Positions 21,284 to 46,823 of a stretch of DNA of 64,000 nt are shown piece after piece. The DNA is taken from NCBI RefSeq assembly GCF_009223885.1, contig NZ_CP045144.1, forward strand, positions 2,654,001 to 2,718,000. Direction: 5' to 3'. Position numbers and translations under genes: made by a program. The notes beneath the pieces are model-generated. The model did no database searches. It was given only the letters and a program-made list of their open reading frames with translations, and had not been told where the DNA came from. Source of the DNA: Ancylobacter sp. TS-1. GTDB taxonomy: Bacteria; Pseudomonadota; Alphaproteobacteria; Rhizobiales; Xanthobacteraceae. Positions within the stretch are counted from its first letter, which is position 1. Each line of letters starts with the position of its first letter.

Positions 21284-21299
21284 TGGCACGCCTCTTGCG
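21284..21299 (+). promoter_or_regulatory. Sigma-54 (-24/-12) promoter of the aldehyde dehydrogenase gene
   Basis: TGGCACGCCTCTTGCG matches the RpoN consensus TGGCACG-N4-TTGCW at every defined position except the final W. Transcription should start near 21311, about 26 nt before the ATG. Confidence 0.88.
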
Positions 21300-21336
21300 G
21301 TCTGTTCCCATCCCTTTCGTTTGCGAAAGCACGGTC

Positions 21337-22824
21337 ATGACCATCAACGTGAATCCCGTCGCCGACATCATCACGCCGCTTCCCAAGCAGCTCCTGATCG
21401 ACGGCAAATTCGTCCCCTCGCTCTCGGGCAAGACCTTCAAGACCTTCAACCCGGCGACCGGCCAGGTGCTGGCCGAGGTCTCCGAGGGCGGCGCCGCCGA
21501 CATCGACCTCGCCGTCGCGGCGGCCCGGCGCGCCTTCAACGGCCCGTGGAGCCGCTTCACCCCGTTCCAGCGCCAGGCGCTGCTGCTGCGCTTCGCCGAC
21601 CTGGTTGAGAAGCATTTCGAGACGCTGGCCCATATCGACGTGCTCGACATGGGCGCGCCGATCACCTCGATGTACGCCCGCCGCCAGCGCGCGCTCGGCC
21701 TGCCGCGCTTCTATGCCGGCATGTGCACGGTGATCGCCGGCGGCACGCTGCCCAACTCCATGCCCGGCGAGGTGTTCACCTACACGCTGAAGGAGCCGGT
21801 CGGCGTGGTCGGCGCCATCACGCCGTGGAACGCCCCGCTCACCTCCACCATCTGGAAGATCGCCCCGGTGCTCGCCACCGGCTGCACCATGGTGCTGAAG
21901 CCCGCCGAGGACGCGCCCCTCACCGCGCTGCGTCTCGGCGAGCTGCTGCTGGAGGCGGGCGTGCCGGAAGGCGTCGTCAACATCGTGCCGGGCTTCGGCC
22001 ACATCGCCGGCGACGCGCTGGCCCGCCACATGGACGTCGACAAGGTGGCCTTCACCGGCTCGGACGTCACCGGCCGCAAGGTCATCGAGGCGTCGAAGAG
22101 CAACATCAAGCGGGTGACGCTGGAACTCGGCGGCAAGTCGCCGGACATCATCTTCGCCGATTGCGACATGGACACCGCCGTCGCCGGCGCCGGCATGGGC
22201 GTGTTCGCCAATACCGGGCAGATCTGCTGCGCCGGCACGCGCCTGCTGATCCAGCGGCCGATCTACGAGGAGTTCGTCGCCCGCGTCTCCGACTATGCGA
22301 AGTCGCTCAAGGTCGGCAACGGCCTCGACCCGGCGACGCAGATCGGCCCGGTGGTCAACGCCAAGCAGCTCGACCGCGTGACCGGCTACATGGAGATCGG
22401 TCTCGGCGAGGGTGTCACCGCCGCTGCCGGCGGCAAGCGCATCACCGAGGGCGCGCTGAAGGACGGCTATTTCTTCGAGCCGACCGTGCTCTCCGGCGTG
22501 ACCAACGACATGCGCATCGCCCAGGAGGAGATCTTCGGCCCGGTGGCCGCCGCCATCCCCTTCGACACGCTGGAGGAAGCGGCCGCCATCGCCAACGACA
22601 CCGTGTTCGGCCTCGGCGGCGGCGTGTGGACCTCCAACGTCACCACCGCCCACCGCATCGCCAAGGCGATCCGCGCCGGCACGGTATGGATCAACACTTA
22701 TGGCGGGCTCGACCCGGTGGTGCCGTTCGGCGGTTACAAGACCAGCGGCTATGGCCGCGAATCCGGCACCGAGCATCTCGACGCCTATCTGGAAACCAAG
22801 TCGGTGGTCCTCAAGCTGGGCTGA
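21337..22824 (+). CDS. NAD(P)-dependent aldehyde dehydrogenase
   Basis: A 495-residue ALDH-superfamily enzyme oxidising an aldehyde to its acid. Signs are the cofactor segment PWNAPLTSTIWKIAPVLATG, KPAEDAPLTALRLGEL, FTGSDVTGR, catalytic Glu in LELGGKSP, catalytic Cys in NTGQICCAGTR and EEIFGPVAA. The frame is open upstream, but a sigma-54 promoter at 21284-21299 places the start at ATG 21337. Under the same promoter class as the monooxygenase and alcohol-oxidase genes to the right, it likely oxidises aldehydes released by them. A strong terminator follows, so it is monocistronic. Confidence 0.95.
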   Translation: MTINVNPVADIITPLPKQLLIDGKFVPSLSGKTFKTFNPATGQVLAEVSEGGAADIDLAVAAARRAFNGPWSRFTPFQRQALLLRFADLVEKHFETLAHIDVLDMGAPITSMYARRQRALGLPRFYAGMCTVIAGGTLPNSMPGEVFTYTLKEPVGVVGAITPWNAPLTSTIWKIAPVLATGCTMVLKPAEDAPLTALRLGELLLEAGVPEGVVNIVPGFGHIAGDALARHMDVDKVAFTGSDVTGRKVIEASKSNIKRVTLELGGKSPDIIFADCDMDTAVAGAGMGVFANTGQICCAGTRLLIQRPIYEEFVARVSDYAKSLKVGNGLDPATQIGPVVNAKQLDRVTGYMEIGLGEGVTAAAGGKRITEGALKDGYFFEPTVLSGVTNDMRIAQEEIFGPVAAAIPFDTLEEAAAIANDTVFGLGGGVWTSNVTTAHRIAKAIRAGTVWINTYGGLDPVVPFGGYKTSGYGRESGTEHLDAYLETKSVVLKLG

Positions 22825-22847
22825 GTCCCGGCGCACCGATGCGAGAC

Positions 22848-22892
22848 GGAAGGCCCGGCAAGGCTCAGCGCCCCGCCGGGCCTTTCCTTTTC
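22848..22892 (+). terminator. Intrinsic terminator of the aldehyde dehydrogenase gene
   Basis: Stem 22850-22859 pairs perfectly with 22875-22884 (extended by G-U and G-C pairs) around a 15-nt loop, followed by TTTCCTTTTC. It also abuts the end of the convergent MFS gene. Confidence 0.8.
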
Positions 22893-24069
22893 AGTGCCGC
22901 ACGCCGCGCGGAATGACGAAGCGCACCGCGGCGGCGATCAGCAGCGCGCCCACGGTGAGCATCAGGAAGGCGGCGCGCATGCCCTGCGCATGCGCCACGA
23001 AGCCGATCAGCGGCGGCCCGAACAGGCCGCCGCCATAGGCGATGGTCACCGTCATGGCGATGCCGGCATTGGGCGGGATGCCGGGCATGCGCCCGCTCAA
23101 AGAGAAGAAGATCGGCACCAGATTGGCGATGCCGAGGCCGGCGATGGCGAAGCCCGGCAGCGCCGCCAGCATGGTCGGTGCCCAGACGATGATGGCGACG
23201 CCGACAAAGGCGATGGCGCCGGAGATCTGGATCGTCGTCACCGCGCCGAGGCGGCGCACGATGCGGTCGCCGAACAGCCGTCCGCCGGTCATGGCGAGCG
23301 AGAAGGACGCCACGCCATAGGCCGCCATCGCCGGCGCCGTGGCGGTCGCCTGCACGAGGTAGAGCGCGCCCCAGTCGATCAGCGCCAGCTCGATGACGAA
23401 GGCCAGCACGGTGAGGATGCCGATCCCCAGCATGGTCAGATTGGGAAGCTGGAAGATCGAGCCGCCGGTGACCTCGCGTACATGGGCTTCCGGCAGCCAG
23501 AGCCACGGCACGGCGGCGAAGGCGAGCGCCACCAGAATGACGCTGGCGAGGCCGAGGCCGGCCGGCACGCTCAGCCCCAGCCCGATCAGCACGCCGCCGG
23601 ACAGCGCGCCGACCACGTTGCCCAGGCTGAAGAAGGCGTGCGCCGAGGACATGATCGGCCGGCCCAGCTCGCGCTCCAGCGCCGAGGCATGCGAGTTCAT
23701 GCACACGTCGAGGAAGCCGAAGCACAGGCCGATGAGATAGGCCGAGAGCGCCAGCACCGGCATGGTGGTGCCGAGCGCCGGGCCGAAGGCGGCCGCCGCG
23801 AAGGCGATGCCCGACAGTGCGCCGGCGCGCAGCGGCCCGAGGCGCGGGCGCAGCACCCCCGCCAGCGGCATGCCGCACAGGCAGCCGATCGACACGCACA
23901 GCAGCACGAGGCCGACCTGCGCATCGTCGAGCCCTGCCCGCGCCTTGAGGATCGGAAGATAGGTCGCCCAGACCGTCAGCCCGGCGCCGCCGACGAAGAA
24001 AATCACGCTCACGGCAATACGCGACGCGGCGAGCGCACGATGCTCCCGCGCGGCGATCGACTCACTCAT
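22891..24069 (-). CDS. MFS transporter, YbjJ-like
   Basis: A 392-residue, 12-helix major facilitator resembling E. coli YbjJ and fucose-permease-like carriers: VGGAGLTVWATYLPILKARAGLDDAQVG at the N-terminus, the LGFLDV/MNSHAS region at about 125-140 (GLCFGFLDVCMNSHASALE), and GIPPNAGIAMTVTIAYGGGLFGPPLIG in the second half. The family's substrates are mostly unknown. ATG 24069 is the natural start. A -24/-12-like sequence at 24126-24141 on the minus strand lies just upstream, so it may belong to the neighbouring sigma-54 regulon. Confidence 0.88.
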   Translation of the reverse strand: MSESIAAREHRALAASRIAVSVIFFVGGAGLTVWATYLPILKARAGLDDAQVGLVLLCVSIGCLCGMPLAGVLRPRLGPLRAGALSGIAFAAAAFGPALGTTMPVLALSAYLIGLCFGFLDVCMNSHASALERELGRPIMSSAHAFFSLGNVVGALSGGVLIGLGLSVPAGLGLASVILVALAFAAVPWLWLPEAHVREVTGGSIFQLPNLTMLGIGILTVLAFVIELALIDWGALYLVQATATAPAMAAYGVASFSLAMTGGRLFGDRIVRRLGAVTTIQISGAIAFVGVAIIVWAPTMLAALPGFAIAGLGIANLVPIFFSLSGRMPGIPPNAGIAMTVTIAYGGGLFGPPLIGFVAHAQGMRAAFLMLTVGALLIAAAVRFVIPRGVRH

Positions 24070-24125
24070 GCTACGTCCCAACCGAACTCGCGGACGGCGG
24101 TGCCGCCCGTCTTCCGCCCCCGCAC

Positions 24126-24141
24126 GGCACAATATGTGCCA
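24126..24141 (-). promoter_or_regulatory. Candidate sigma-54 promoter of the MFS gene (or palindromic operator)
   Basis: On the minus strand the sequence reads TGGCACATATTGTGCC: a perfect TGGCAC -24 element with the -12 GC at the right distance (GTGC instead of TTGC). It is about 57 bp upstream of the MFS start. Because it is also palindromic it could instead be a repressor site. Confidence 0.5.
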
Positions 24142-24407: not shown

Positions 24408-26003
24408 ATGCATGACTATGTGATTGTCGGTGGCGGCTCGGCCGGCTGCGTCCTCGCCGCGCGGCTGTCGGAGGATCCCGCCGTCTCGGTGCTGCTGCTG
24501 GAGGAGGGCCCGCGCGACCGCTCGCCCTACATCCACATCCCCGCCATGGTCTACAAGACCGCCACCGGCGCCCTGCTCCAGCGGGTGCCGTGGGAGCCGG
24601 CCAACGGCGCCTCGGGCGGGGTCGCCGCACCCCACATGGTGCAGGCCCGCGTGCTTGGCGGCGGCTCGTCGGTCAACGGCATGGTCTATGTGCGCGGCAT
24701 ACCGAGCGATTTCGACGGCTGGGCGGCGCAGGGAGCGGAAGGCTGGGACTATGCCGGCGTGTTGCCTTATTTCAAACGCGCCGAAAGCAATGACAGCTTC
24801 GGCGGCGACGCCCACGGCACCGACGGCCCGCTCTGGGTGTCGAGCCAGCCGTCGCCGCACCCGCTGACCAGAGCGTGGCTGAAGGCCTGCCAGGAATTCG
24901 GCATCCCGCCGGTGGCCGACTTCAATAGCGGGGTGCAAACCGGCTGCGGCGTCTACCAGATCACCGCCCGCAACGGCCGGCGCGCCTCCACCGCCGTCAC
25001 CTATCTCAAGCCCGCGCGCAAACGGGCCAACCTCACCGTGCGCACCGGCTGCCGGGCGACGCGCGTGCTGATCGAGAAGGGCCGCGCCACCGGCGTCGAA
25101 TATGCGCGCGGCACAAGCCGCGAGACGGTGCGGGCGCGCGAGGTGATCCTTTCCGCCGGCGCCATCCAGTCGCCGCGCCTGCTGCTCCAATCCGGCATCG
25201 GCCCGGCCGCCCATCTGCGCCGCGTCGGCGTCGAGGTGGCGCACGACCTGCCCGGCGTCGGGCGCGGCCTTCAGGACCATATGGACGTCTATCTCGTGCA
25301 CGAACTCGCCGGCACGGAGAGCTACGACGTCTACCGCCGTTTCCACCGCAAGATCGGCGCCGGCCTGCACTGGCTGCTGTTCCGGCGCGGGCCGCTGTGC
25401 TCGAACCTGATCGAAGGCGGCGCCTTCTGGTGGGGCGACAGGGAGCTGCCCGACCCCAACCTCCAGTTCCACTTCCTGCCCGGCACCGGCATCGAGGAGG
25501 GCGTGCAGCCCGCCGCCAGCGGCTGCGGCTCGACGCTGAACATCTGCCTCACCCGCCCGCGCTCGCGCGGCGTGGTCGAACTGACCTCGGCCGACCCCTT
25601 CGCGCCGCTGCGGGTGGCGCCGAACTATTTCGGCGACCCCTACGACCTTGACTGCATGGCGGAGGGCATAAGGCTCGGCCAGGAAATCATGGCGCAGCCC
25701 TCCATCGCCCGCCACGTCGCCCGCGAGCAGCTTCCCGGCGCGCCGCTGCGCACGCTCGAGGAGCGCCGCGCCTATGTGCTCGGGCGCGCGCAGGGCGCGC
25801 TGCACCCGGTCGGCACCTGCCGGATCGGCGTCGACGCGATGGCGGTGGTCGACCCCGCCCTGCGGGTGCGCGGCATCGAGGGGCTCAGGGTAGCGGACGC
25901 CTCGGTTATGCCCTCCACACCCTCGGGCAACACCAACGCCGCGACCATCATGGTGGCGGAGAAGGCGGCCGCGACGATCCGCGGCGGGGCGCGCATCCCC
26001 TGA
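24408..26003 (+). CDS. GMC family FAD oxidoreductase 1 (choline-dehydrogenase-like)
   Basis: A 531-residue glucose-methanol-choline flavoprotein oxidising an alcohol to an aldehyde. It has the FAD-binding GGGSAGCVLAARLSED at residue 7, GMC signature 1 (ARVLGGGSSVNGMVYVRG), signature 2 (SAGAIQSPRLLLQSGIG), and the C-terminal active-site His (LHPVGTCRIG) and Asn (SGNTNAATIM). GGGGGAA precedes ATG 24408. It closely resembles GMC 2 at 33499. Transcribed toward the ABC operon but separated from it by that operon's own sigma-54 promoter. Confidence 0.93.
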   Translation: MHDYVIVGGGSAGCVLAARLSEDPAVSVLLLEEGPRDRSPYIHIPAMVYKTATGALLQRVPWEPANGASGGVAAPHMVQARVLGGGSSVNGMVYVRGIPSDFDGWAAQGAEGWDYAGVLPYFKRAESNDSFGGDAHGTDGPLWVSSQPSPHPLTRAWLKACQEFGIPPVADFNSGVQTGCGVYQITARNGRRASTAVTYLKPARKRANLTVRTGCRATRVLIEKGRATGVEYARGTSRETVRAREVILSAGAIQSPRLLLQSGIGPAAHLRRVGVEVAHDLPGVGRGLQDHMDVYLVHELAGTESYDVYRRFHRKIGAGLHWLLFRRGPLCSNLIEGGAFWWGDRELPDPNLQFHFLPGTGIEEGVQPAASGCGSTLNICLTRPRSRGVVELTSADPFAPLRVAPNYFGDPYDLDCMAEGIRLGQEIMAQPSIARHVAREQLPGAPLRTLEERRAYVLGRAQGALHPVGTCRIGVDAMAVVDPALRVRGIEGLRVADASVMPSTPSGNTNAATIMVAEKAAATIRGGARIP

Positions 26004-26124: not shown

Positions 26125-26140
26125 TGGCATGCCTCTTGCT
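26125..26140 (+). promoter_or_regulatory. Sigma-54 promoter of ABC transporter operon 1
   Basis: TGGCATGCCTCTTGCT matches the RpoN consensus with one change (T for C at position 6). The expected start is near 26152, leaving a leader of about 47 nt. Half-sites GAGACT, GCGACA and TTCTCA at 26037-26060 lie upstream but do not form a clean 18-bp UAS. Confidence 0.85.
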
Positions 26141-26198: not shown

Positions 26199-27371
26199 AT
26201 GGTCGACAAGCCTATCGGGCGCCCGTTCGGGAGCGCCAATATTCTTCGCAACGACGTCCTGTCCCGTCGCGGCTTCCTGGGAACCTCGCTCGCCCTCGGC
26301 GCCGGCGCGGCGGCCGGTGCCACGCTCGGCGCCTGGCCCGGACCGGCTTCGGCGGCCGGCGGCGACCTCAAGATCATGGCCTGGGAAGGCTTCACCATGG
26401 ACGCCGAGCTGAAGGCCTGGCGCGAGGCCAACAAGGTGCAGGTGGACGCCGCCATCATCAGCACGCAGGACGACGTCCACGCCAAGCTGATCGGCTCCAA
26501 TCCGGTGCGCCTCGATCTCGCCGAATATTCGCAGGGCTTCGAGCGCTTCTATGTCGACGAGCTGAAGATCGTGAAGCCGCTCGACATCGCCCGGGTGCCG
26601 AACTTCACGCCCGAGAACATCTATCCCGAGTTCTACCAGGCGCCGACCTGGTACTGGGACAAGACCCATTTCGCCATTCCGTGGATCTGGGGCCTCAACG
26701 CCCTCGTCTACAACCCGGCGATGACCAAGCCGATCACCTCCTACAAGGACCTGCTGGCGCCGGAGCTGAAGGGCAAGCTGACCTTCTGCGACGACACCAT
26801 CGCCACCTGGCCGATGATCGCCCGCCTCGCCGGCCTCGGACCGAAATTCCCCAACATCACCAAGGAAGAGCTGAAGACCGCGTTCGAGGGGCTCGGCCCC
26901 TATCGCGACCAGTGCCGCGTCTTCGGCGCGTCCAATGGCGACGTCATCTCGCTCTTCGCCTCGGGCGAGATCGCCGCCTGCTTCTCGGTGTGGAGCGGCA
27001 CGCCGGTGGAAACCGCCAAGCGCGGTGTGAAGACGGTCTACACCGTCCCCGCCGAGGGCGCGGTCATGTGGTGCGACGCCTGGTTCATGCCGATCAGCGT
27101 GCAGAATGTCGACGCCGCCTACGGCTTCATGAACGAGGCCATCACCGCCAAGGCCCAGGCCGAGGTGGCGAAGGCGGTCAATGGCGGCGCGGTCAACAAG
27201 CACGCCCCGGCGCTGATGGATGCCGACACCAAGGCGCTGTTCGACTACAGCAACCTGCCGCAGGTGTTCGCCAAGTCGCCGCTCCAGGGCCAGCCGCCGC
27301 GCGTCTCAGACACCTATGCCACCTATGATGAGTGGACTCAGGCCTGGACCGACTTCAAGTCCTCGTTCTGA
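26199..27371 (+). CDS. ABC importer 1: periplasmic substrate-binding protein (PotD-like)
   Basis: A 390-residue extracellular solute-binding protein of the spermidine/putrescine class. A twin-arginine signal peptide (LSRRGFLGTSLALGAGAAAG, about residues 22-52) predicts Tat export of a folded protein. The mature part begins DLKIMAWEGFTM and keeps the family's LIGSNPVRLDLAEYSQGF and GLNALVYNPAMTKP segments. GGGGAA is 4 nt from ATG 26199. First gene of a four-gene importer operon driven by the sigma-54 promoter at 26125. The ligand is unknown; the family binds polyamines, other cations and small organic compounds. Confidence 0.92.
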   Translation: MVDKPIGRPFGSANILRNDVLSRRGFLGTSLALGAGAAAGATLGAWPGPASAAGGDLKIMAWEGFTMDAELKAWREANKVQVDAAIISTQDDVHAKLIGSNPVRLDLAEYSQGFERFYVDELKIVKPLDIARVPNFTPENIYPEFYQAPTWYWDKTHFAIPWIWGLNALVYNPAMTKPITSYKDLLAPELKGKLTFCDDTIATWPMIARLAGLGPKFPNITKEELKTAFEGLGPYRDQCRVFGASNGDVISLFASGEIAACFSVWSGTPVETAKRGVKTVYTVPAEGAVMWCDAWFMPISVQNVDAAYGFMNEAITAKAQAEVAKAVNGGAVNKHAPALMDADTKALFDYSNLPQVFAKSPLQGQPPRVSDTYATYDEWTQAWTDFKSSF

Positions 27372-27405
27372 TCCGCGCCGGCGCCTTTCGGAGAATGTGT
27401 TGGGA

Positions 27406-28278
27406 ATGATGAAGATCAGCCGTCACGAGCGGATGGGACTGGCCCTGGTGGCCCCGTCCTTCCTCTTCCTCCTCGTCTTCTTCATCGTTCCCGCCATCCT
27501 TCTCTTCGTCTGCAGCTTCTGGATGGCGCAGGCGTTCCGGCTGATTCCGGCCTTCACCCTCGACAATTACGCCCGTGCGCTCTCCAGCACCGGCTTCTAT
27601 TTCCTGACCTGGAACGCGCTGAAGAACGGCCTGTGCACGGCGATACTCACCGTCGCGCTCAGCTTCCCGGCGGCCTATTTCATCGTCTACCGCACGCGCG
27701 GCAACCTGCTGTTCTACCTGATCCTGGTCTCGTGGTTCTCCAGCTACCTCGTGCGCATCTATGCCTGGCGCGTGATCCTCGGCTCCAACGGGCTGATCAA
27801 CACGACGCTGATGCAGCTCGGGCTCATCAGCGAGCCGATCGAGGTGCTGCTGTTCAGCCCCTTCGCCACCATCCTCACCCTGACCCACATCATGCTGCCC
27901 TTCGGCCTGCTGCTGCTGGTCTCGGCGCTCCGCGACGTGAAGAAGGAATATGTCGAGGCGGCGCGTGACCTCGGCGCCAGCAACGCCGAGGTGCTGACCC
28001 GGGTGATCCTGCCCATGTGCTACAAGGGCGTGGTCGGCGCCTTCATGTTCACCTTCGTCATCTCGGCCGGCGACTTCGTCACCCCGCAGCTGCTCGGCGG
28101 GCGCGACGGCATGACCACCGGCATCCTCATCGCCAACCAGTTCAGGACCGCCGGCAACTGGCCGTTCGGCGCCGCCATGGCCTTCCTGCTGCTGGTGGCG
28201 TTCCTGATTGTCTACGTCGCCTTCGTGCGGCTGCTCGATCTCCTGCGGCTCGCCCCGGGCCGCCGGTTCCACGATTGA
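27406..28278 (+). CDS. ABC importer 1: permease subunit A (PotB-like)
   Basis: A 290-residue inner-membrane permease with six helices and the ATPase-contact EAA loop VEAARDLGASNAEVLTRVILP at about 195. It follows the binding-protein gene by 34 bp. Start at ATG 27406; a TTG at 27400 with GGAGAA at better spacing is an alternative. It should pair with subunit B and the ATPase to import the ligand of the PotD-like protein. Confidence 0.93.
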   Translation: MMKISRHERMGLALVAPSFLFLLVFFIVPAILLFVCSFWMAQAFRLIPAFTLDNYARALSSTGFYFLTWNALKNGLCTAILTVALSFPAAYFIVYRTRGNLLFYLILVSWFSSYLVRIYAWRVILGSNGLINTTLMQLGLISEPIEVLLFSPFATILTLTHIMLPFGLLLLVSALRDVKKEYVEAARDLGASNAEVLTRVILPMCYKGVVGAFMFTFVISAGDFVTPQLLGGRDGMTTGILIANQFRTAGNWPFGAAMAFLLLVAFLIVYVAFVRLLDLLRLAPGRRFHD

Positions 28279-28309
28279 GACGCGCCGTCTCGCCGCGCAC
28301 GGAGGTCTC

Positions 28310-29104
28310 ATGCTGAGATTCTATGTCTGGCTCTATGTGGCGTTCCTCTACGCGCCCATCGCCATCATCACGCTGTTCAGCTTCCACTCCTCGCCGAGCC
28401 TCACCTTTCCGTTCGAGGGGGTGAGCCTGCGCTGGTACGCGAAGATCTTCTCCGACACGACCTTCCTCAACTCGCTGTGGAACAGCCTGATCGTCGGCGC
28501 CAGCACCGCCGCCATCACCACCGTGCTCGGCTCGCTGACCGCGCTCGGCCTCGCCCGGCTGAAAGGGCGCATCCAGACCGTGTTCGGCCTGCTCGCCTTC
28601 GGGCCGGTGGCGCTGCCGGGCCTGTTCCTCGGCATCGCGCTGGTGATGCTGTTCTCGCAGATCGGGCTGCAGCGCTCGCTGGTGACAGTCACCATCGCGC
28701 ATGTGCTGTTCACCCTGCCCTTCTTCATCGAGGCGGTGCGCTCGCGGATCGAATATTTCGACCTCTCGCTCGAGGAGGCCGCGCGCGATCTCGGCGCCAC
28801 GCCGCTCCAGAGCTTCCGGCTGGTGACGCTGCCGATCATCGGCCCGACCATCGGCGGCGCGGCGATCCTGTCCTTCGCCCTGTCCTTCGACGAGTTCATC
28901 ATCACCGTCTTCGTCAGCGGCAACGACACCACCCTGCCGCTCACCATCTGGTCGATGATGCGCCGCGCCGTCAGCCCGGACATCAACGCCGCCTCCGTCA
29001 TCTCCCTCGGCCTGTCGATCGGGATGATCCTGATCGGCGGCCTGCTGGTCTGGTACCAGCGCCGGCTTGCCCTCGGCGCACGCGCGAAGGACATCGAAAC
29101 ATGA
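28310..29104 (+). CDS. ABC importer 1: permease subunit B (PotC-like)
   Basis: A 264-residue permease, six helices, EAA loop LEEAARDLGATPLQSFRLVTLP at about 155-175 (a family-typical position). GGAGG sits 5 nt before ATG 28310. Its stop codon overlaps the ATG of the ATPase gene (ATGA). Typical PotC-like start MLRFYVWLYVAFLYAPIAI. Functions as the second half of the translocation pore; in importer 2 of this window the two halves are fused in one protein. Confidence 0.93.
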   Translation: MLRFYVWLYVAFLYAPIAIITLFSFHSSPSLTFPFEGVSLRWYAKIFSDTTFLNSLWNSLIVGASTAAITTVLGSLTALGLARLKGRIQTVFGLLAFGPVALPGLFLGIALVMLFSQIGLQRSLVTVTIAHVLFTLPFFIEAVRSRIEYFDLSLEEAARDLGATPLQSFRLVTLPIIGPTIGGAAILSFALSFDEFIITVFVSGNDTTLPLTIWSMMRRAVSPDINAASVISLGLSIGMILIGGLLVWYQRRLALGARAKDIET

Positions 29105-30198
29105 GCACGTCGAACATCGTCGAACTGTATGGAGTGACCAAGGCCTTCGGCGCGCTCACCGTCCTGCATGACATCGACCTCGGCATCCGCGAGGGCGAGA
29201 TCCTGACCCTGCTCGGCCCCTCGGGCTGCGGCAAGACCACGCTGATGAGGATCATCGCCGGCTTCGAGGCGACGACGCATGGCCGCGTCACCATCAAGGG
29301 CGCCGACGTGTCCTACCTGCCGCCCGACAGACGGCCGGTGAACATGGTGTTCCAGCGCTACGCGCTGTTCCCCCATCTCGACGTGTTCGACAACGTCGCC
29401 TTCGGCCTGCGCCTCAAGAAGTGGTCGAAGGAGCGCATCCGCGAGGCGGTGCAGCACATGCTGCACCTCGTGCAGCTCGACGAATATGGCAGCCGCTGGA
29501 TCCACGAGCTTTCCGGCGGGCAGGCCCAGCGCGTGGCGCTGGCGCGCGCGCTGGTCAACTCGCCCTCGGTGCTGCTGCTCGACGAGCCGCTGGCCGCGCT
29601 CGACCTGAAGATCCGCCATCACATGCTGGCCGAGCTCAAGCGCATCCACCAGGAGACCGGCACCACCTTCATCTACGTCACCCACGACCAGGACGAGGCG
29701 ACCATCCTGTCCGACCGCATCGTGCTGATGAACAAGGGTCGCATCGAGCAGATCGGCACGCCGGAGGAGATGTACGCGCATCCGCGCTCGCTGTTCTGCG
29801 CCCGCTTCCTCGGCGAGACCAACATCCTCTCCGGCGCGGTGAGTGCCACCGATTCCGACACGACCTATGTGAGCGTCGCCGCCGGCACGGCCAAGGTGCC
29901 GGCCAACGGCACCGCCGTGCTGCTCGGCCAGTCGGTCTCGCTCGCCATCCGGCCGGAGGCGCTGCAGGTCAGCCGGATCGGGCAGGAGGCGGCCACGCCG
30001 GGCGAAGCGGAGAACACGCTGGAAGGTGTCGTCGAGGACGTCGTGTTCATGGGCAGCCGGGTGCTCTACTCGATCCGCACCCCGGCCGAGACCATCAAGT
30101 ATCAGGAAACCCGCTCCGTCGACGGCTCCATGCTCGCCCGGGGCGAGCGGGTGCGGGCCAGCTGGCGCCCCGATGCCGCGGTGCTGCTGACGCGCTGA
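29101..30198 (+). CDS. ABC importer 1: ATP-binding subunit (PotA-like)
   Basis: A 365-residue ATPase. Walker A GPSGCGKTT, Q-loop VFQRYALFPH, signature LSGGQAQRVALARAL, Walker B VLLLDEPLAALD and the switch His in YVTHDQDEA occur in order. A C-terminal TOBE domain (about 280-365) is typical of PotA/FbpC. It overlaps the permease stop by 4 bp, so it is translationally coupled. Energises uptake by the operon's permeases. Confidence 0.95.
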   Translation: MSTSNIVELYGVTKAFGALTVLHDIDLGIREGEILTLLGPSGCGKTTLMRIIAGFEATTHGRVTIKGADVSYLPPDRRPVNMVFQRYALFPHLDVFDNVAFGLRLKKWSKERIREAVQHMLHLVQLDEYGSRWIHELSGGQAQRVALARALVNSPSVLLLDEPLAALDLKIRHHMLAELKRIHQETGTTFIYVTHDQDEATILSDRIVLMNKGRIEQIGTPEEMYAHPRSLFCARFLGETNILSGAVSATDSDTTYVSVAAGTAKVPANGTAVLLGQSVSLAIRPEALQVSRIGQEAATPGEAENTLEGVVEDVVFMGSRVLYSIRTPAETIKYQETRSVDGSMLARGERVRASWRPDAAVLLTR

Positions 30199-30211: not shown

Positions 30212-30229
30212 GGTCTCACGGGCGCGAAA
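30212..30229. promoter_or_regulatory. Putative UAS upstream of monooxygenase operon A, GGTCTC-N6-GCGAAA
   Basis: This matches the window's recurring 18-bp inverted repeat, though with a weaker right arm. Two more GTCTCA half-sites follow at 30231 and 30247. It lies 86 bp upstream of the -24/-12 promoter. An imperfect IHF-like sequence (30285-30297, minus strand) lies between. Confidence 0.5.
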
Positions 30230-31557: not shown

Positions 31558-31566
31558 GACGGCCCG

Positions 31567-35091: not shown

Positions 35092-35099
35092 GGCGCGCC

Positions 35100-36357: not shown

Positions 36358-38292
<1,935 letters not shown>

Positions 38293-38853: not shown

Positions 38854-40437
38854 ATGCAGTTCGATTACATCGTCATCGGCTCGGGCTCGGGTGGCAGCGC
38901 CGTCGCCGGCCGCCTCGCCGAGGACGGGCGCTCCCGCGTCCTCGTGCTGGAAGCGGGCGGCTCCGACCGCCGGCTGCCGGTCCTGATGCCGGCGGCGACC
39001 TATCTCTACGCCATCGGCAACCCGCGCTACGACTGGCGGCTGAACTCGCAGCCGGACCCCTCGCGCGGCGGGCGCACCGACTACATGCCGCGCGGCAAGG
39101 TGCTCGGGGGCTCCTCCTCGATCAACGGCATGCTCTATGTGCGCGGTCAGCCGGAGGATTTCGACGGCTGGGCGGCGCAGGGCTGCGAGAGCTGGGACTT
39201 CGCCCGCGTGCGCCCCTATTTCCGCCGCGCCGAGGACAATGAGAACGGCGCCGACGCGGATCACGGCACCGGCGGGCCGGTGAGCGTGCAGAACCTGCGC
39301 ACCTCGCACCCGCTCTCCGACGCCTTCCTGCGCGCCGGCGTCGAGGCCGGGCTGGAGGAGACCTCCGACATCAACCGCCCGCCGCAGGGCGGCATCGGCT
39401 ACCTTCAGGCGACGCAGAAGAACGGCTGGCGCTGCAATGGCGCGCGCGCCTATCTCTGGCGCAAGCGGCCCAACCTCACCGTGCTGACGCACGCGCAGGC
39501 CCGGCGCATCCTGTTCGACGGCACCCGCGCCAGCGGGGTGATGTTCGACCGCAAGGGCGAGACCGTCACCGCCCATGCCGCGAAGGCGGTGGTGCTGAGC
39601 GCCGGCGCCTTCGGCTCGCCGCAGCTCCTCATGCTGTCCGGCGTCGGGCCGCAGGCGCAGCTACGGGAGCACGGCATCGACGTCGTGCACGACCTGCCGG
39701 GCGTCGGCGAGAACTTCCACGACCATCCCGGCACCAGCCACATCGCCTGGGTCGACCGGCCGACCTACAATGTGCAGCACACGCCCTGGCACGCGATGCT
39801 CTATGGCGCGCTGTGGCTGCTTGCCGGGCGCGGGCCGGGCACCACCCCGGACGCGCATGTGATGGCCTTCATCCGCTCGCAGCCGGACCTGCCGCGCTGC
39901 GACCTCGAAATCCACTTCACGCCGGCGGGCTACGACCTCACCGAGACCGGGCCGATCCTGTTCGACCGCCCGGCGGTGACGGCGCTGAACAACATCCACC
40001 GCCCCTATTCGCGCGGCCATGTGCGGCTCGCCAGCGCCGACCCCTTCGCCGCCCCGGCGATCCAGCCGAACCTGCTCGGCGACGCGCGCGACCTCGAGAC
40101 CCTCGTCATCGGCGCCAAGCGGCTGCGCGCCATCTTCGAGGCGCCCGCCATGGCCCGCCACGTGCTCGGCGAGTTCAAGCCGGGCCGCGAGGTACAGAGC
40201 GACGACGAGTGGGCCGCCTATGTCCGCGAGACGGCGATCGGCATCTACCACCCCGCCGGCACCTGCAAGATGGGCGTCGACCCGATGGCCGTGGTCGACC
40301 CGACGCTGAAGGTGCGCGGCCTCGAAAACCTCTACGTCGCCGACGCCTCGATCATGCCGGTCATCGTCAGCGGCAATCTCAACGCGAACTGCATCATGAT
40401 CGGCGAGCGATGCGCCGATTTCATCAAGGCGGCCTGA
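38854..40437 (+). CDS. GMC family FAD oxidoreductase 3
   Basis: A 527-residue GMC flavoprotein: FDYIVIGSGSGGSAVAGRLAEDG, signature 1 GKVLGGSSSINGMLYVRG, signature 2 SAGAFGSPQLLMLSGVG, active-site IYHPAGTCKMG and SGNLNANCIM. It is less similar to GMC 1 and 2 than these are to each other. ATG 38854 gives the normal N-terminus but lacks a clear ribosome-binding site; an ATG at 38746 would add a 36-residue basic leader. Followed without gap by the DadA-like gene at 40440, so both are probably one transcript. Confidence 0.92.
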   Translation: MQFDYIVIGSGSGGSAVAGRLAEDGRSRVLVLEAGGSDRRLPVLMPAATYLYAIGNPRYDWRLNSQPDPSRGGRTDYMPRGKVLGGSSSINGMLYVRGQPEDFDGWAAQGCESWDFARVRPYFRRAEDNENGADADHGTGGPVSVQNLRTSHPLSDAFLRAGVEAGLEETSDINRPPQGGIGYLQATQKNGWRCNGARAYLWRKRPNLTVLTHAQARRILFDGTRASGVMFDRKGETVTAHAAKAVVLSAGAFGSPQLLMLSGVGPQAQLREHGIDVVHDLPGVGENFHDHPGTSHIAWVDRPTYNVQHTPWHAMLYGALWLLAGRGPGTTPDAHVMAFIRSQPDLPRCDLEIHFTPAGYDLTETGPILFDRPAVTALNNIHRPYSRGHVRLASADPFAAPAIQPNLLGDARDLETLVIGAKRLRAIFEAPAMARHVLGEFKPGREVQSDDEWAAYVRETAIGIYHPAGTCKMGVDPMAVVDPTLKVRGLENLYVADASIMPVIVSGNLNANCIMIGERCADFIKAA

Positions 40438-40439
40438 GC

Positions 40440-41711
40440 ATGGCGACTTCCTCCACACACGGGCGGCGCACCGTCGCCGTCATCGGCGGCGGCGCGGTGG
40501 GCGTCGCCACCGCGAGCTTCCTGCTGCAGGACGGCCACGATGTGGTGCTGATCGAGCGCTTCGGCATCGGCGAGGGCGCCTCCTTCGGCAATGCCGGCGT
40601 CTTCGCGCCTTCCTCCGTGGTGCCGATGTCGATGCCCGGCACGCTGGCCAAGGTGCCCGGCTATCTGCTCGACCCGCTCGGGCCGCTGTCGATCCGCTGG
40701 CGCTACCTGCCGACGCTGGCGCCGTGGCTGGTGCGCTTCGTGCGGGCCGGCACCCAGGCCGGCGTGCGCGCGCAGGCCCGCGCCCTCACCCCGCTGCTGC
40801 ACGATTCCTACGGCGCCTGGCTGCCGCTGGTGCGCAATGCCGGCGGCGACGACCTGATCCGCCGCGACGGCTTCCTCGCCGTCTATCGCAGCCAGGCCGA
40901 TTTCGACGGCGACGCGCTCGGCTTCCAGCTTCGCCGCGACAATGGCATTGCCTTCGAGGTGCTGCGCGAGGACGAGCTCTGGCAGTTCGAGCCGAGCGTC
41001 TCGCACGACTACACGATCGGCGTGCTGTTCCCGCAGGCCGGCAACACGGTGAACCCGAACCGGCTGGTGCGCACCGTCGCCGAGCAGTTCCAGCGCGACG
41101 GCGGACGCCTCGTGCGGGCGCAGGCGCGCGGCTTCGCCCGCGAGGGCGTGACGCTGAAAGGCGTCGAGACCGATGCCGGCCTCATTCCCGCCGACGCCGC
41201 CGTGGTCGCGGCCGGCGCCCATTCGCGCACCCTCGCTGCGGGACTGGGCGACGATATCCCGCTCGACACCGAACGCGGCTACCACGTGCTGGTCGCCGAT
41301 CCCGAGACGCTGCCACGCCGGCCGATCCTCGACGCCAGCGCCAAATTCGTCTCGACCCCGATGGAGACCGGGCTGCGCATGGCCGGTACGGTCGAGTTCG
41401 CCGGGCTCGACGCGCCGCCGAACTGGACCCGCGCCGACCATCTGCTCACCCTCGGCCGGCGGCTGTTCCCCGGCCTGGCGCCGGCCTATCCGGAATCGCG
41501 GGTCTCGCGCTGGATGGGCTTCCGCCCCAGCATGCCGGATTCGCTTCCCGTGATCGGGCGCGCCGGCGCCACCCCGCACGTGGTCTACGCCTTCGGGCAC
41601 GGCCATGTCGGCCTCGCCTCGGCCGCGCGCACCGGCATGGCGGTGGCCGACCTCATCGCCGGCCGGCCGGCGCCCTTCGACCTCGCGCCCTTCGCGCCGA
41701 CCCGGTTCTGA
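40440..41711 (+). CDS. FAD-dependent oxidoreductase B (DadA-like)
   Basis: A 423-residue DAO-fold flavoprotein with FAD motif VAVIGGGAVGVATASFLLQDG, GEGASFGNAGVFAPSSVVPM, GNTVNPNRLVRTVAEQF and C-terminal FGHGHVGLASA. The layout and these segments align with the DadA-like protein at 35100, its paralogue in module A. It starts 2 bp after the GMC 3 stop and is expected to oxidise an amine or D-amino-acid-like group. A ribosome-binding site is weak, suggesting translational coupling to GMC 3. Confidence 0.88.
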   Translation: MATSSTHGRRTVAVIGGGAVGVATASFLLQDGHDVVLIERFGIGEGASFGNAGVFAPSSVVPMSMPGTLAKVPGYLLDPLGPLSIRWRYLPTLAPWLVRFVRAGTQAGVRAQARALTPLLHDSYGAWLPLVRNAGGDDLIRRDGFLAVYRSQADFDGDALGFQLRRDNGIAFEVLREDELWQFEPSVSHDYTIGVLFPQAGNTVNPNRLVRTVAEQFQRDGGRLVRAQARGFAREGVTLKGVETDAGLIPADAAVVAAGAHSRTLAAGLGDDIPLDTERGYHVLVADPETLPRRPILDASAKFVSTPMETGLRMAGTVEFAGLDAPPNWTRADHLLTLGRRLFPGLAPAYPESRVSRWMGFRPSMPDSLPVIGRAGATPHVVYAFGHGHVGLASAARTGMAVADLIAGRPAPFDLAPFAPTRF

Positions 41712-41751: not shown

Positions 41752-41769
41752 TTTCTCCGCAATGAGACG
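41752..41769. promoter_or_regulatory. Putative UAS upstream of monooxygenase operon B, TTTCTC-N6-GAGACG
   Basis: One of the recurring 18-bp palindromes, 63 bp upstream of the -24/-12 promoter, with an additional CGTCTC half-site at 41740. A CATCAACGCGTTG sequence on the minus strand (41817-41829), close to an IHF consensus, lies just before the promoter. Confidence 0.55.
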
Positions 41770-41832: not shown

Positions 41833-41848
41833 TGGCACGGGCTTTGCC
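41833..41848 (+). promoter_or_regulatory. Sigma-54 promoter of monooxygenase operon B
   Basis: TGGCACGGGCTTTGCC fits TGGCACG-N4-TTGC at all core positions. Transcription should start near 41860, which excludes upstream in-frame starts and supports the GTG at 41898 as the translation start of the monooxygenase. Confidence 0.9.
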
Positions 41849-41897: not shown

Positions 41898-43007
41898 GTG
41901 CTGCTTTCCTTCTTCATGATGCCGCTTCATTCGGTCGGCAGGGACTATGTCACCACGCTCGACGAGGACATCGAAGCCTTCAAGCTCGCCGACGAACTCG
42001 GCTTCGAGGAGGGCTGGGTCGGCGAACACTACTCGGCCTCGATCGAGCAGATCTCCTCGCCCCTGATGTTCCTCGCCCACATGGCGTCGCAGACCAAGCG
42101 CATCAAGCTCGGCACCGGCGTGATGACGCTGCCGCTCTACCACCCGGTGATGGCGGCCGCCCATGTCGCGCTGGCCGACCACCTCACGCGCGGCCGGCTC
42201 ATTCTCGGCATCGGCACCGGCGGCCTCGGCTCGGATTTCGAGCTGTTCAAGCTGGAGACCGCCGACCGCACCGCCATGATGCTCGACTCCATCGAGATCA
42301 TGAAGAAGATCTGGGCCTCCGATCCGCCGTACGACATCACCGGCACGTTCTGGGACGTGAAGCTGAGCAAGGTGAACTGGCCCGAGTTGGGCGTCGGCCC
42401 GATGCCGAAGACCTTCACCAAGCCGCATCCCCCGCTCGCCGTTTCGGTGTCGAGCCCCAATTCCGGCTCGATGCGCGTGGCCGCCCGCAACGGGTTCATG
42501 CCGATCTCGGCCAATTTCGTCGCTTCCTGGGTGGTGAAGACCCATTGGGAAACGTATTGCGACGAGATGGCCAAGCTCGGCAAGACGCCGGATGGCTCGC
42601 AGTGGCGCGTCGCCCGCTCCATCCATGTCGCCGACACCGATGCGGAAGCCGAGGCCATCGTGAAGGCGCCCGGCGGCGCCTATGACTGGTACTACGACTA
42701 CATGTACCAGGTGTATGAGCGCATGGGCGCCGGCGCCCTGCTCGCCCCGTTCCGCGACACCGACCCGGCCACCATCACCCACCAGATGGTGCGCGACAAT
42801 TTCGTGATCTATGGCAGCCCGGAAACGGTGGCGCGCAAGATTCTCGCGTTGCGCGAGGAAGTTGGTCCGTTCGGCACGCTGATGATGACGTCGCACGAAT
42901 GGGTGGACAAGCCGGCGATGCGCCGGTCCATGGAACTGCTTGCCAAGCGCGTCATGCCCGCCGTCAATGCGGCGCTCGGCGAAAACGTGCCGGCGATCGC
43001 GGTCTGA
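41898..43007 (+). CDS. Luciferase-like FMN-dependent monooxygenase B (LLM class)
   Basis: A 369-residue LLM monooxygenase paralogous to the one at 30451: LLSFFMMPLHSVGRDY, ADELGFEEGWVGEHYSASIEQ, LGTGVMTLPLYHPVMAAAHVALADHLTRGRLILGIGTGGLGSDFELF and GPFGTLMMTSHEW align segment by segment. The GTG at 41898 with AAGGGAG 7 nt upstream fits the sigma-54 transcription start. It needs an external FMN reductase (candidate at 20498). It is co-transcribed with an aldonolactone-oxidase-like flavoprotein. Substrate unknown but presumably related to that of monooxygenase A. Confidence 0.92.
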   Translation: MLLSFFMMPLHSVGRDYVTTLDEDIEAFKLADELGFEEGWVGEHYSASIEQISSPLMFLAHMASQTKRIKLGTGVMTLPLYHPVMAAAHVALADHLTRGRLILGIGTGGLGSDFELFKLETADRTAMMLDSIEIMKKIWASDPPYDITGTFWDVKLSKVNWPELGVGPMPKTFTKPHPPLAVSVSSPNSGSMRVAARNGFMPISANFVASWVVKTHWETYCDEMAKLGKTPDGSQWRVARSIHVADTDAEAEAIVKAPGGAYDWYYDYMYQVYERMGAGALLAPFRDTDPATITHQMVRDNFVIYGSPETVARKILALREEVGPFGTLMMTSHEWVDKPAMRRSMELLAKRVMPAVNAALGENVPAIAV

Positions 43008-43027
43008 GCAGGCGAAGGAAGAGCAAG

Positions 43028-44296
43028 ATGCCGAGCGTCGACAAGAGCGCCGTGCTGCAGCCCGGCAAGCTGTGGTGGAACTGGTTCGGGGAACAGTATT
43101 TCGTGCCGCGCTACACCGCGCGCCCGACCAGCGAGGAGGAGGTCTGCGCCATTGTGCGCGAGGCCCGCAAGCTCGGCCTGCCGATCCGCGCCAGCGGCGC
43201 GGGCCATTCCAACCCCGCCATCGTGCCGACGCCGGGCGTCCATATCGACTTCGACGACTTCAACCAGGTCGTCGCGGTCGACAAGGAGAAGCTGCAGGTC
43301 ACGGTGCGCCCCGGCATGCGCATCAGCGCGCTGACCAAATATCTGCGCGAGCAGGGCATGTCGCTCAACAACCAGGGCGACATCGACCGGCAGGCGGTGA
43401 TCGGCGCGATGATGACCGGCACCCACGGGGCGGGCAAGACGCTGCCCTGCCTCTCGGCGCAGCTCATCGGCGCGCGCATCGTCACGGCGGAGGGCGAACT
43501 GCGTGACCTCTCCCCGGCCGATGGCGAGCTGTTCAAGGCGTTCCGCACCTCGATCGGCATGTTCGGGCTGGTGGTCTCGCTGACCCTCCAGGCGGTGCCG
43601 TCCTACAATATCTACAAGCGTTCGTGGAACACCGACGCCGAGGACTGCCTCGACAATCTGCACGCCCTGCTCGACGCCAACCGGACCTTCTGGTTCTTCT
43701 GGCTGCCGCGCAAGGAATCGGCTGATCTCTACGAGCTGCCGGGCGGTGTGGTGCCCTCGAAGGCGACGCGCGACTTCGACATCTGCCACATGCGCACCTA
43801 CAACGCGGTGCCGGTGGCCGAGCCCGCGCCGCAGCTGGGGCCGGGCGAGGAATTCGACCATTCCTCGATCATCTACCCCAATGACTACATCCCGAACTTC
43901 CGCGAGATCGAATACGCCGTCCCCTTCGGCCGCTTCGAGGAGTGCTTCGCCGAGGTGCGGCAGATGTTCAAGACCAAGTACCCGGAGGCGATCTACCCGG
44001 TCGAATGCCGGGCGGTGAAGGGCGACGACACCTACCTGTCGGCCTATTCCGAGCGCGACGGCTACGCGCTCTCCATCTCCGGCCCGCTGGAGGAATGGAC
44101 CTGGGGCATGCTGCGCGACGCCGACGCCATCCTCGACCGCTACGATGCGCGCCCGCACTGGGGCAAGCACCACTTCATGACGCCGGAGCGGCTGGAGCGG
44201 ATCTATCCGAAATACGACGCCTTCAGGAAGCTACGGCGGGAGATGGACCCCGACGGGGTCTTTCTCAACGACCATCTGCGCATGCTGTTCGCCTGA
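43028..44296 (+). CDS. FAD-linked oxidase (D-arabinono-1,4-lactone oxidase-like, VAO fold)
   Basis: A 422-residue flavoprotein with an N-terminal FAD_binding_4 (VAO) domain: RPTSEEEVCAIVREARKLGLPIRASGAGHSN, where the GHS His is the usual covalent-FAD position, and TGTHGAGKTLPCLSAQ. The C-terminal ALO domain ends in HWGKHHFMTPERLERIYP and VFLNDHLRMLF, the hallmark of aldonolactone and alditol oxidases. Family members oxidise sugar alcohols or lactones at a CH-OH. GGAAGAG precedes ATG 43028; it lies 20 bp after monooxygenase B and ends at a strong terminator. Its role beside a monooxygenase is unexplained. Confidence 0.9.
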   Translation: MPSVDKSAVLQPGKLWWNWFGEQYFVPRYTARPTSEEEVCAIVREARKLGLPIRASGAGHSNPAIVPTPGVHIDFDDFNQVVAVDKEKLQVTVRPGMRISALTKYLREQGMSLNNQGDIDRQAVIGAMMTGTHGAGKTLPCLSAQLIGARIVTAEGELRDLSPADGELFKAFRTSIGMFGLVVSLTLQAVPSYNIYKRSWNTDAEDCLDNLHALLDANRTFWFFWLPRKESADLYELPGGVVPSKATRDFDICHMRTYNAVPVAEPAPQLGPGEEFDHSSIIYPNDYIPNFREIEYAVPFGRFEECFAEVRQMFKTKYPEAIYPVECRAVKGDDTYLSAYSERDGYALSISGPLEEWTWGMLRDADAILDRYDARPHWGKHHFMTPERLERIYPKYDAFRKLRREMDPDGVFLNDHLRMLFA

Positions 44297-44444: not shown

Positions 44445-46490
<2,046 letters not shown>

Positions 46491-46580
46491 GGCCGGGCCC
46501 GGCGCCGCCCGGCCGCCCGGCTTGGGGCATGCGGCTTTGGCGCGCGTGTACGCGCGCGCTTGGCGCACCCTCGCCGCGCA

Positions 46581-46598
46581 TGTCGCGCATCTGCGACA
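46581..46598. promoter_or_regulatory. Putative UAS, perfect palindrome TGTCGC-N6-GCGACA
   Basis: The most symmetrical copy of the recurring 18-bp site: both 6-bp arms are perfect inverted repeats. It lies 209 bp upstream of the -24/-12 promoter. Confidence 0.6.
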
Positions 46599-46669
46599 GC
46601 CCATGGCTCATTGATGCAACGTTGCGACCCCGGCGCAACCCGTCTCATCCCGTCCCGTAGACGCGAACA

Positions 46670-46687
46670 TGTCTCATTGATGAGGAC
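46670..46687. promoter_or_regulatory. Putative UAS, TGTCTC-N6-GAGGAC
   Basis: The second copy in this control region, 89 bp downstream of the first and 120 bp upstream of the -24/-12 promoter. The left arm matches the consensus exactly; the right arm reads GAGGACA with one inserted base. Confidence 0.55.
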
Positions 46688-46807
46688 ACGATCTTCTCCT
46701 TGTGCGACATCTTTATAGTGCCGAATATCGTATGGAATATTTCATTTACCGGATCATTCATCCCCGCCTGATCCGGTATCTTCTTGGGAGACAAGAATAT
46801 CTTGGTC

Positions 46808-46823
46808 TGGCACGATAGTTGCC
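46808..46823 (+). promoter_or_regulatory. Sigma-54 promoter of ABC transporter operon 2
   Basis: TGGCACGATAGTTGCC fits TGGCACG-N4-TTGC at all core positions. The transcript should start near 46835, about 32 nt before the first gene. Confidence 0.9.

Follow-up and report, generated by a model that had tools for sequence, protein, structure and literature searches.

A predicted sigma-54 regulon of uptake and monooxygenase genes with two DhaR/AcoR-type activators in Ancylobacter sp. TS-1

The stretch described here (the window) comprises 64,000 nucleotides of the genome of Ancylobacter sp. TS-1 (contig NZ_CP045144.1, positions 2,654,001 to 2,718,000). It contains an island of approximately 30 kb with uptake and oxidation genes in the order flavin reductase, aldehyde dehydrogenase (ALDH), MFS transporter, GMC1, ATP-binding cassette (ABC) importer 1, operon A, enhancer-binding protein 1 (EBP1, minus strand), GMC3-DAO3, operon B, EBP2, ABC importer 2 and a MocR-type regulator (minus strand). 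Operons A and B begin with the genes of two luciferase-like monooxygenases, LLM-A and LLM-B. Predicted sigma-54 promoters stand ahead of six genes or operons. The island is very probably a sigma-54-dependent catabolic regulon with a core and an optional module, in which two paralogous activators of the DhaR/AcoR type would read one operator. The coordinates of all features are shown in Table 1.

Sigma-54 promoters of the island

A sequence-only reading of the window had placed five sigma-54 promoters of the form TGGCACG-N4-TTGC at 21284, 26125, 30316, 41833 and 46808, each just before the first gene of an operon. All five coordinates are correct. The form itself is exact at 21284, 30316, 41833 and 46808 and has one mismatch at 26125 (TGGCATG). 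The sites do precede first genes: the GC of the -12 element lies 20-120 nt ahead of the start codons of ALDH, importer 1, LLM-A, LLM-B and importer 2, where the figure of 20 nt applies to the earliest likely start of LLM-B (GTG 41868) and becomes 50 nt if LLM-B begins at GTG 41898. The number of promoters had to be raised to six, as a further exact site is located on the minus strand at 21045-21059, ahead of the flavin reductase gene. In all six sites ten bases separate the GG of the -24 element from the GC of the -12 element, within a context of the type TGGCAC-N5-TTGC. With a position matrix built from all clusters compared below, they are the six best sites of the 64-kb window (scores 21.6-26.0; next best 10.0), and they score 21.4-25.8 when their own genome is excluded from the matrix. 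The genome contains one copy of rpoN (PF04552, E 1.5e-70).

The exact pattern occurs ten times in the whole genome (3.96 Mb, one contig), five times within 25.8 kb of the island; the reversed pattern, used as a control, has one exact match in the genome. With the frequency found in the remainder of the genome, 25.8 kb would be expected to contain 0.033 exact sites (Poisson P approximately 3e-10, with the limits of the stretch set after the sites had been seen). The genome-wide motif scan that had been proposed as a check of the local regulon thus gives a density of exact sites far above that of the rest of the genome, the comparison being with the whole genome instead of intergenic regions alone and hence a coarse form of the proposed density test.

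The other five exact sites of the genome are L002, L003, L004, L010 and L011. Those of L002, L004 and L011 lie at or just ahead of same-strand reading frames with a high G+C content at third codon positions, as judged from translations only; the frame at L011 is a GntR-like gene, after which comes a possible solute-binding protein (SBP). The L003 site overlaps the start of a short frame, and at L010 the frame filter showed none.

Table 1. Positions of promoters, palindromes and genes in the window
Feature	Position	Strand	Remarks
P_red, predicted sigma-54 promoter, TGGCACGCGACTTGC	21045..21059	-	exact match; diverges from P_aldh; missed by the sequence-only reading
P_aldh, predicted sigma-54 promoter, TGGCACGCCTCTTGC	21284..21298	+	exact match
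P_abc1, predicted sigma-54 promoter, TGGCATGCCTCTTGC	26125..26139	+	one mismatch
P_llmA, predicted sigma-54 promoter, TGGCACGGCGATTGC	30316..30330	+	exact match
P_llmB, predicted sigma-54 promoter, TGGCACGGGCTTTGC	41833..41847	+	exact match
P_abc2, predicted sigma-54 promoter, TGGCACGATAGTTGC	46808..46822	+	exact match
Degenerate sigma-54-like site ahead of MFS gene, TGGCACATATTGTGC	24127..24141	-	matrix score 10.0
Enhancer-like palindrome between P_red and P_aldh, TGTCGCTGATCTGAGACG	21123..21140		2 mismatches
Three GTCTCA half-sites upstream of P_llmA	30212..30252		best palindrome 30212-30229, 3 mismatches
Enhancer-like palindrome upstream of P_llmB, TTTCTCCGCAATGAGACG	41752..41769		3 mismatches
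Enhancer-like palindrome upstream of P_abc2, TGTCGCGCATCTGCGACA	46581..46598		1 mismatch
Sigma-70-like promoter region of GMC3-DAO3	38662..38728	+	tandem palindromes 38662-38675 and 38682-38699, then TATACTT 38722-38728
EBP1, DhaR/AcoR-type sigma-54 activator	36358..38292	-	PF00158 E 1e-63; HTH_8 (PF02954); GAFTGA
EBP2, DhaR/AcoR-type sigma-54 activator	44445..46490	+	PF00158 E 3e-60; PF02954; GAFTGA
Flavin reductase	20498..20998	-	ATG 20998, alternative GTG 21010; PF01613 E 2e-41
ALDH	21337..22824	+	PF00171 E 5e-172
MFS transporter	22891..24069	-	PF07690; likely ATG 24069, longest frame to 24186
GMC1, choline-dehydrogenase-like oxidoreductase, accessory module	24408..26003	+	PF00732/PF05199
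ABC importer 1	26199..30198	+	SBP 26199-27371; permeases 27406-28278 and 28310-29104; ATPase 29101-30198
Operon A	30451..36353	+	LLM-A 30451-31557; RidA 31646-32008; DAO1 32061-33488; GMC2 33499-35091; DAO2 35100-36353; assigned by Pfam
GMC3-DAO3 operon, core module	38854..41711	+	GMC3 38854-40437; DAO3 40440-41711
Operon B	41898..44296	+	LLM-B (probable start GTG 41898) to 43007, PF00296 E 6e-47; ALO-type FAD oxidoreductase 43028-44296, PF04030
ABC importer 2	46867..50809	+	SBP 46867-47970; ATPase 48010-49089; fused permeases 49082-50809
MocR-type regulator (GntR + aminotransferase domains)	50818..52236	-	adjoins importer 2

Conservation in related clusters and the shared palindrome

The comparison set consists of 16 clusters, i.e., the window and 15 related ones; 13 of the 16, the window included, form the Ancylobacter group. 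LLM-A has relatives in Ancylobacter koreensis (96%), A. moscoviensis, A. sonchi, A. mangrovi, Hansschlegelia, three Pseudomonas and two metagenome-assembled genomes. LLM-B is present with at least 70% identity in 14 of 29 same-genus genomes besides its own, and at E 1e-130 or better in six of 397 genomes drawn from the order, its own included; it is therefore patchy in the genus and rare in the order sample. Sites with at most one mismatch precede the flavin reductase, LLM-B and ABC importer 2 in 16 of 16 clusters each, and importer 1 and LLM-A in six of the six clusters that carry them. The ALDH site is found in 12 of the 13 Ancylobacter-group clusters. Some genomes also have a site ahead of RidA (5) or at the start of the MFS gene (7, one mismatch). 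The gene order is rearranged in G139, G022 and G020, yet the sites ahead of the flavin reductase, LLM-B and importer 2 are kept. Within the Ancylobacter group, identity is 85-96% for the 15-base cores and 35-68% for ungapped 40-base flanks; as the sites were found by matching, their spacer (64-100% identical) and positions are fairer evidence than the cores.

Orthologs and paralogs of LLM-B differ in this respect. A site is present at 16 of 16 orthologs with at least 70% identity, the window included, and at four of four further orthologs from another family, but at none of 14 fetched paralog loci (42-48% identity; upstream part of a flank of approximately 1.5 kb). The control covers these 14 loci; further paralogs were listed without a locus.

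For the analysis of upstream regions 84 promoters were selected from the 16 cluster regions, which contain 94 sites with one mismatch or none. One of the 84, at 4024 in G139, stands ahead of genes without assignment. Left out were the sites at 5411 in G029 (before the MFS gene) and 20033 in G026 (12 nt beside the RidA site), and those not assigned to an island gene, at 7548 in G010, 3282 and 9849 in G002, 4260 in G023, 14542 in G139, 7798 and 31264 in G022 and 8671 in G020.

The promoters share an 18-bp palindrome, TGTCKCA-N4-TGMGACA, approximately 60-230 nt upstream, often as half-sites only. GTCTCA or its complement occurs in 81 of the 84 upstream regions (-260 to -50), compared with 5.7% of 3,200 random segments of the same cluster regions. 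Among the 155 distinct half-sites, a partner in converging orientation (at most one mismatch) stands at a spacer of 4 in 31 cases. The other spacers within the range tested (0-11, converging order only) were rejected, none giving more than one of 155. Palindromes with at most three mismatches accompany 76 of the 84 promoters, as against 49 of 2,400 random segments. At two mismatches or fewer there are 63 palindromes in all cluster regions; of these, 43 are no more than 300 bases away from a listed sigma-54 site, 16 represent the element of GMC3/DAO3 described below, and four lie elsewhere. At one mismatch or fewer the whole genome of strain TS-1 contains only two, both in the island (38682 and 46581); the reversed palindrome gives three, so that the number is not raised and only the location is telling. 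Within the window GTCTCA or its complement is present in five of five separate upstream regions, compared with 4.2% of the segments outside the island. This predicted operator is the new element of the present report. Two further GTCTCA/TGAGAC half-sites occur at the permease-permease junction of importer 1 (28276-28310), with no promoter site nearby.

More distant clusters resemble the island. In Hansschlegelia (L044), sites and half-sites precede importer 1 and LLM-A. Pseudomonas sp. JM0905a (L045), P. lini (L046) and P. alliivorans (L047) carry an EBP (38-41%), LLM-A (64%), permeases, the ATPase, GMC2 and DAO1; P. lini and P. alliivorans have the MFS, ALDH and flavin reductase genes in addition. 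In these two an exact TCTCA-N4-TGAGA ends approximately 50 nt ahead of a TGGCAYR-N4-TTGC site at the ALDH homologue, and strain JM0905a has only palindrome cores with one mismatch near the LLM-A promoter. The recognition helices of the Pseudomonas proteins (SRATLYRKLK, SKATLYRKIK) resemble those of EBP1 and EBP2.

Activators, proposed mechanism and alternative readings

Two genes for enhancer-binding proteins had been reported at 36358-38292 (minus) and 44445-46490 (plus), and both were recovered there. EBP1 and EBP2 combine an AAA+ domain containing GAFTGA with a helix-turn-helix (HTH) domain, as is characteristic of bacterial EBPs. The two proteins are 44% identical over nearly their full length, and their recognition helices are alike (SRATLYRRLK and SRATLYRKLQ, respectively). 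PF00158 has eight matches in the genome, of which six are strong (E 4.3e-53 or better) and two of the strong ones lie in the island. As both proteins miss the NCBIfam cut-off of 551 for the DhaR equivalog (EBP2 254.8, EBP1 240.9 bits), they are not DhaR itself. A GAF-domain sensor had been named for activators of this kind. Neither protein has a Pfam GAF domain at an E limit of 10, at which the filters remove most matches above approximately 0.1; GAF-type folds are among the lower structural matches of a model of the EBP2 N-terminus. EBP1 has a sub-threshold Pfam match to IclR_C (E 0.0027). The EBP2 model (335 residues, built from 8 sequences, mean pLDDT 71) suggests a DhaR-like N-terminus; its best three matches in the PDB are E. 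coli DhaR(N) (Foldseek, E 1.3e-14 and on). Most of the remaining matches listed are IclR-type regulators; some chains of the T4 antiholin-holin complex are also present, and GAF domains of NifA, PDE5A and CodY rank lower. The root-mean-square deviation from DhaR(N) over the full length is approximately 15 Å, so that the order of the domains matches and their placement does not.

Both activators seem to be expressed from their own sigma-70-type promoters. By eye, sigma-70-like stretches lie upstream of EBP2 in nine of the nine clusters printed (containing TTGACG) and upstream of EBP1 in four of five (containing TTGCCA). The interval between operon B and EBP2 (44300-44445) contains, again by eye, a terminator-like element in which Ts follow a GC-rich inverted repeat; the conserved TTGACG stretch comes after it.

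The following mechanism is proposed. A small molecule that enters through the two polyamine-type importers, or a product of its metabolism, would bind the DhaR-like N-terminus of EBP1 and/or EBP2. The EBPs would sit on the palindromes by means of their similar Fis-type recognition helices, form an ATPase ring and cause RNA polymerase with sigma-54 to open at P_red, P_aldh, P_abc1, P_llmA, P_llmB and P_abc2. Uptake, the supply of reduced flavin mononucleotide (FMNH2) and oxidation would then be expressed jointly, with the single flavin reductase supplying FMNH2 to both monooxygenases and the GMC, DAO, RidA and ALDH enzymes processing the oxidized, probably nitrogen-containing, product further. 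A local sigma-54 regulon that joins uptake and oxidation had been proposed before, and rpoN, the density of sites, the conservation in 15 clusters and the common upstream element support it. It has to be modified in three respects: the promoters number six, GMC3-DAO3 has the common element and no sigma-54 promoter was found there, and the island consists of two modules, each with its own activator.

The EBP1 module comprises GMC1, importer 1, operon A and EBP1. It is present in six of the 13 Ancylobacter-group clusters and missing in seven. Among the six, RidA was not found in G029, and RidA and DAO1 were not found in G003. All seven clusters without the module retain EBP2 in their core, and in five of them a RidA homologue is still present together with a site of its own; no GMC3 was found in four of the seven, and no MFS gene in G007. 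As seven clusters keep the EBP2 core in the absence of the module, EBP2 and the core are able to exist without it, and EBP1 occurs together with the second module. Judged by this gene content, the module with EBP1 is an optional extra to a core that contains EBP2.

The same distribution would also fit two separate regulons, in which EBP1 serves its own module (importer 1 and operon A), EBP2 serves the core, and each has its own inducer. Activators that are just 44% identical, and an arrangement of half-sites at P_abc1 and P_llmA that differs from that of the core, point in this direction. On the other hand, the half-site GTCTCA/TGAGAC is common to both modules, the recognition helices are similar, and the one flavin reductase found in the island, which belongs to the core, would have to serve both monooxygenases. 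Two separate regulons are considered rather unlikely. Genomes with one and with two activators offer a natural comparison.

The operator itself could belong to a different regulator. EBP2 is the only regulator of the window that is retained in all 16 clusters, and we infer from this that the EBPs bind the palindrome. If instead the palindrome belonged to an unlinked regulator, e.g., a repressor, its copy at the sigma-70-like GMC3 promoter would fit, as there is no promoter there for a sigma-54 activator to open. Against this, the clusters retain none of the other regulators of the window (an AraC-type gene occurs in the window only, and the MocR-type regulator stands beside importer 2 in the window and in G001 only), and a similar element accompanies the EBP in Pseudomonas. 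An unlinked regulator is considered improbable. Relatives of the MocR-type regulator (57-58%) are located farther off in G007 and G010.

The GMC3-DAO3 promoter region has a different structure. All 13 clusters have TGTCTCA-N4-TGAGA upstream, with C as the first base in one of them, and a second, similar palindrome 21-22 bp further upstream. TATACTT follows 21-22 nt downstream of the proximal palindrome in 12 of the 13, and TATACGT in G002. Four relatives without a GMC3 match have the same block of palindrome and TATAC ahead of DAO3. A sigma-54 promoter was sought in the 13 clusters with leave-one-genome-out matrices and rejected, the best scores being -16.4 to 2.8, compared with 11.2-26.6 for the listed promoters; the score of 2.8 belongs to TGGCAGTAGCGTTGC in G021 alone. 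The bare pattern GG-N10-GC occurs one to four times per upstream segment. With TATACT taken as the -10 box, the palindromes would have their centres at approximately -43 and -65, which is the place of promoter-proximal activators. Either the EBPs act on this sigma-70 promoter directly, or another regulator uses the same operator. A dual mode for one operator is put forward tentatively: the EBP pair would open the six sigma-54 promoters and, from promoter-proximal positions, might regulate RNA polymerase with the main sigma factor at GMC3-DAO3. This promoter is the one unexplained feature of the island and could make the system a variant. The same promoter would show whether direct control of the main RNA polymerase is also within the reach of an activator with an intact GAFTGA.

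The sigma-54 promoters could also be real and answer mainly to nitrogen limitation, via NtrC or another EBP of the genome, in a system of nitrogen scavenging. The polyamine-type importers, three enzymes of the amino-acid-oxidase type and RidA would fit a nitrogen source, and the genome has four other strong EBP genes. However, the activator genes lie inside the island and stay with it, the upstream element is shared and specific to these clusters, and the palindrome is unlike an NtrC site. Control by NtrC or another EBP of the genome is quite improbable.

Several observations weigh against the proposed regulon or limit its evidence. Loose matches to the promoter pattern are not enriched, neither in the window (19 with at most two mismatches, 29.4 expected from shuffles) nor genome-wide (60 with at most one mismatch, 74 for the control), so that the site at 26125 rests on its conservation in relatives and not on its score. 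G029 has no site at P_aldh. The 84 promoters were picked as matches, which makes the invariance of their cores partly a result of selection, and the 16 clusters are kin, so that their counts are not independent. Palindromes with at most three mismatches are not enriched genome-wide (329, control 397). The full palindrome is poor at P_abc1, P_llmA and P_llmB (4, 3 and 3 mismatches), where mainly the half-sites speak, and L113, one of the four distant LLM-B orthologs, has no half-site in the 320 nt searched. Recognition helices of the EBP1/EBP2 type are common in Fis-type HTH domains, and the assignment of the palindrome to the EBPs is based on a comparison of the regulators of the window. That the promoters are chance matches in a GC-rich genome, as the number of two-mismatch matches in the window might suggest, is for practical purposes ruled out by the clustering of exact sites, their conservation, the paralog control and the common upstream element.

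Gene products and known systems

LLM-A and LLM-B are 46% identical and both belong to the luciferase family (PF00296). Of the solved structures, 3,6-diketocamphane 1,6-monooxygenase matches both best by sequence (4uwm; LLM-A E 2e-38, LLM-B E 2e-42). No NCBIfam cut-off was reached among the 25 families shown (of 29 for LLM-A and 30 for LLM-B); the best families by E-value gave 86.5 of 166.9 bits for LLM-A and 99.9 of 412.9 bits for LLM-B. The flavin reductase, the only one detected in the island, has RutF as its best NCBIfam model, with a score under the cut-off. The models nearest to ALDH are StyD/BADH, and neither cut-off was reached. Both importers resemble Pot (polyamine) systems. ATPase 2 passes the subfamily model TIGR01187 (361.2 of 355.6 bits) and ATPase 1 remains under it (348.6); none of the five importer subunits scanned (SBP and ATPase of importer 1 and the three subunits of importer 2) reached a Pot equivalog cut-off among the best 25 families shown. 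The SBP of importer 1 carries a Tat signal (TIGR01409, above the cut-off).

NCBIfam scans of 20 proteins did not point to one particular substrate, nor did sequence searches of the PDB with LLM-A, LLM-B, the ALO-type oxidoreductase, SBP1, SBP2, GMC2, DAO1 and the flavin reductase. Oxidation of aminophosphonates was rejected, as DAO1 misses the cut-off of TIGR03329 (354 of 632.8). Pathways of the trigonelline or homarine type, camphor and the oxidation of pyridoxine were considered, in part from the likeness of single enzymes, and are not supported. The set of enzymes suggests, as a guess, a substrate with nitrogen and hydroxyl groups.

AcoR-like activators are a recognized group, and E. coli DhaR is described as sigma-70 dependent and without GAFTGA (PMC3162934). 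EBP2 resembles DhaR and AcoR in the order of its domains, with a modeled N-terminus nearest to E. coli DhaR(N) followed by AAA+ and HTH_8 domains. Unlike E. coli DhaR, EBP1 and EBP2 retain GAFTGA, and unlike in DhaR/AcoR systems, two paralogs and one operator would serve about seven operons around luciferase-like monooxygenases. Regulation at GMC3-DAO3 recalls the EBPs that act at sigma-70 promoters (NtrC of R. capsulatus and Caulobacter, TyrR, DhaR) in that an EBP-type operator lies ahead of a sigma-70-like promoter. The EBPs named in two papers as acting in this way lack an intact GAFTGA (PMC3162934, PMC10274813), whereas EBP1 and EBP2 have it.

For the sigma-54 regulons of Clostridiales, upstream activating sequence (UAS) motifs specific to single EBPs have been reconstructed by comparative genomics (PMC6615313). 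The island resembles these regulons in combining EBPs and UAS motifs with target operons that belong to a single pathway, and differs in the pathways and the phylum and in that the motif also occurs at a promoter without a sigma-54 site. The diketocamphane monooxygenases of the camphor plasmid (Type II Baeyer-Villiger) are reported to be two isoenzymes that need a flavin reductase (PMC4631483, PMC6843404). Both LLMs match 4uwm best and would likewise need a flavin reductase. In contrast to the camphor system, the island has a reductase in the same regulon, with GMC, DAO and polyamine-type ABC genes as neighbors.

Among the open-licence papers listed by the literature searches, none dealt with this cluster as judged by title or abstract opening, which is weak evidence. 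The island is a conserved new example of a well-known type of gene control. It offers a compact sigma-54 regulon that can be tested, with six predicted promoters and a predicted operator for activators of the DhaR/AcoR type, and related clusters exist in Pseudomonas. The identity of the inducer would point to the substrate of a two-component pathway of luciferase-type monooxygenases whose oxygenases reach none of the listed NCBIfam cut-offs.

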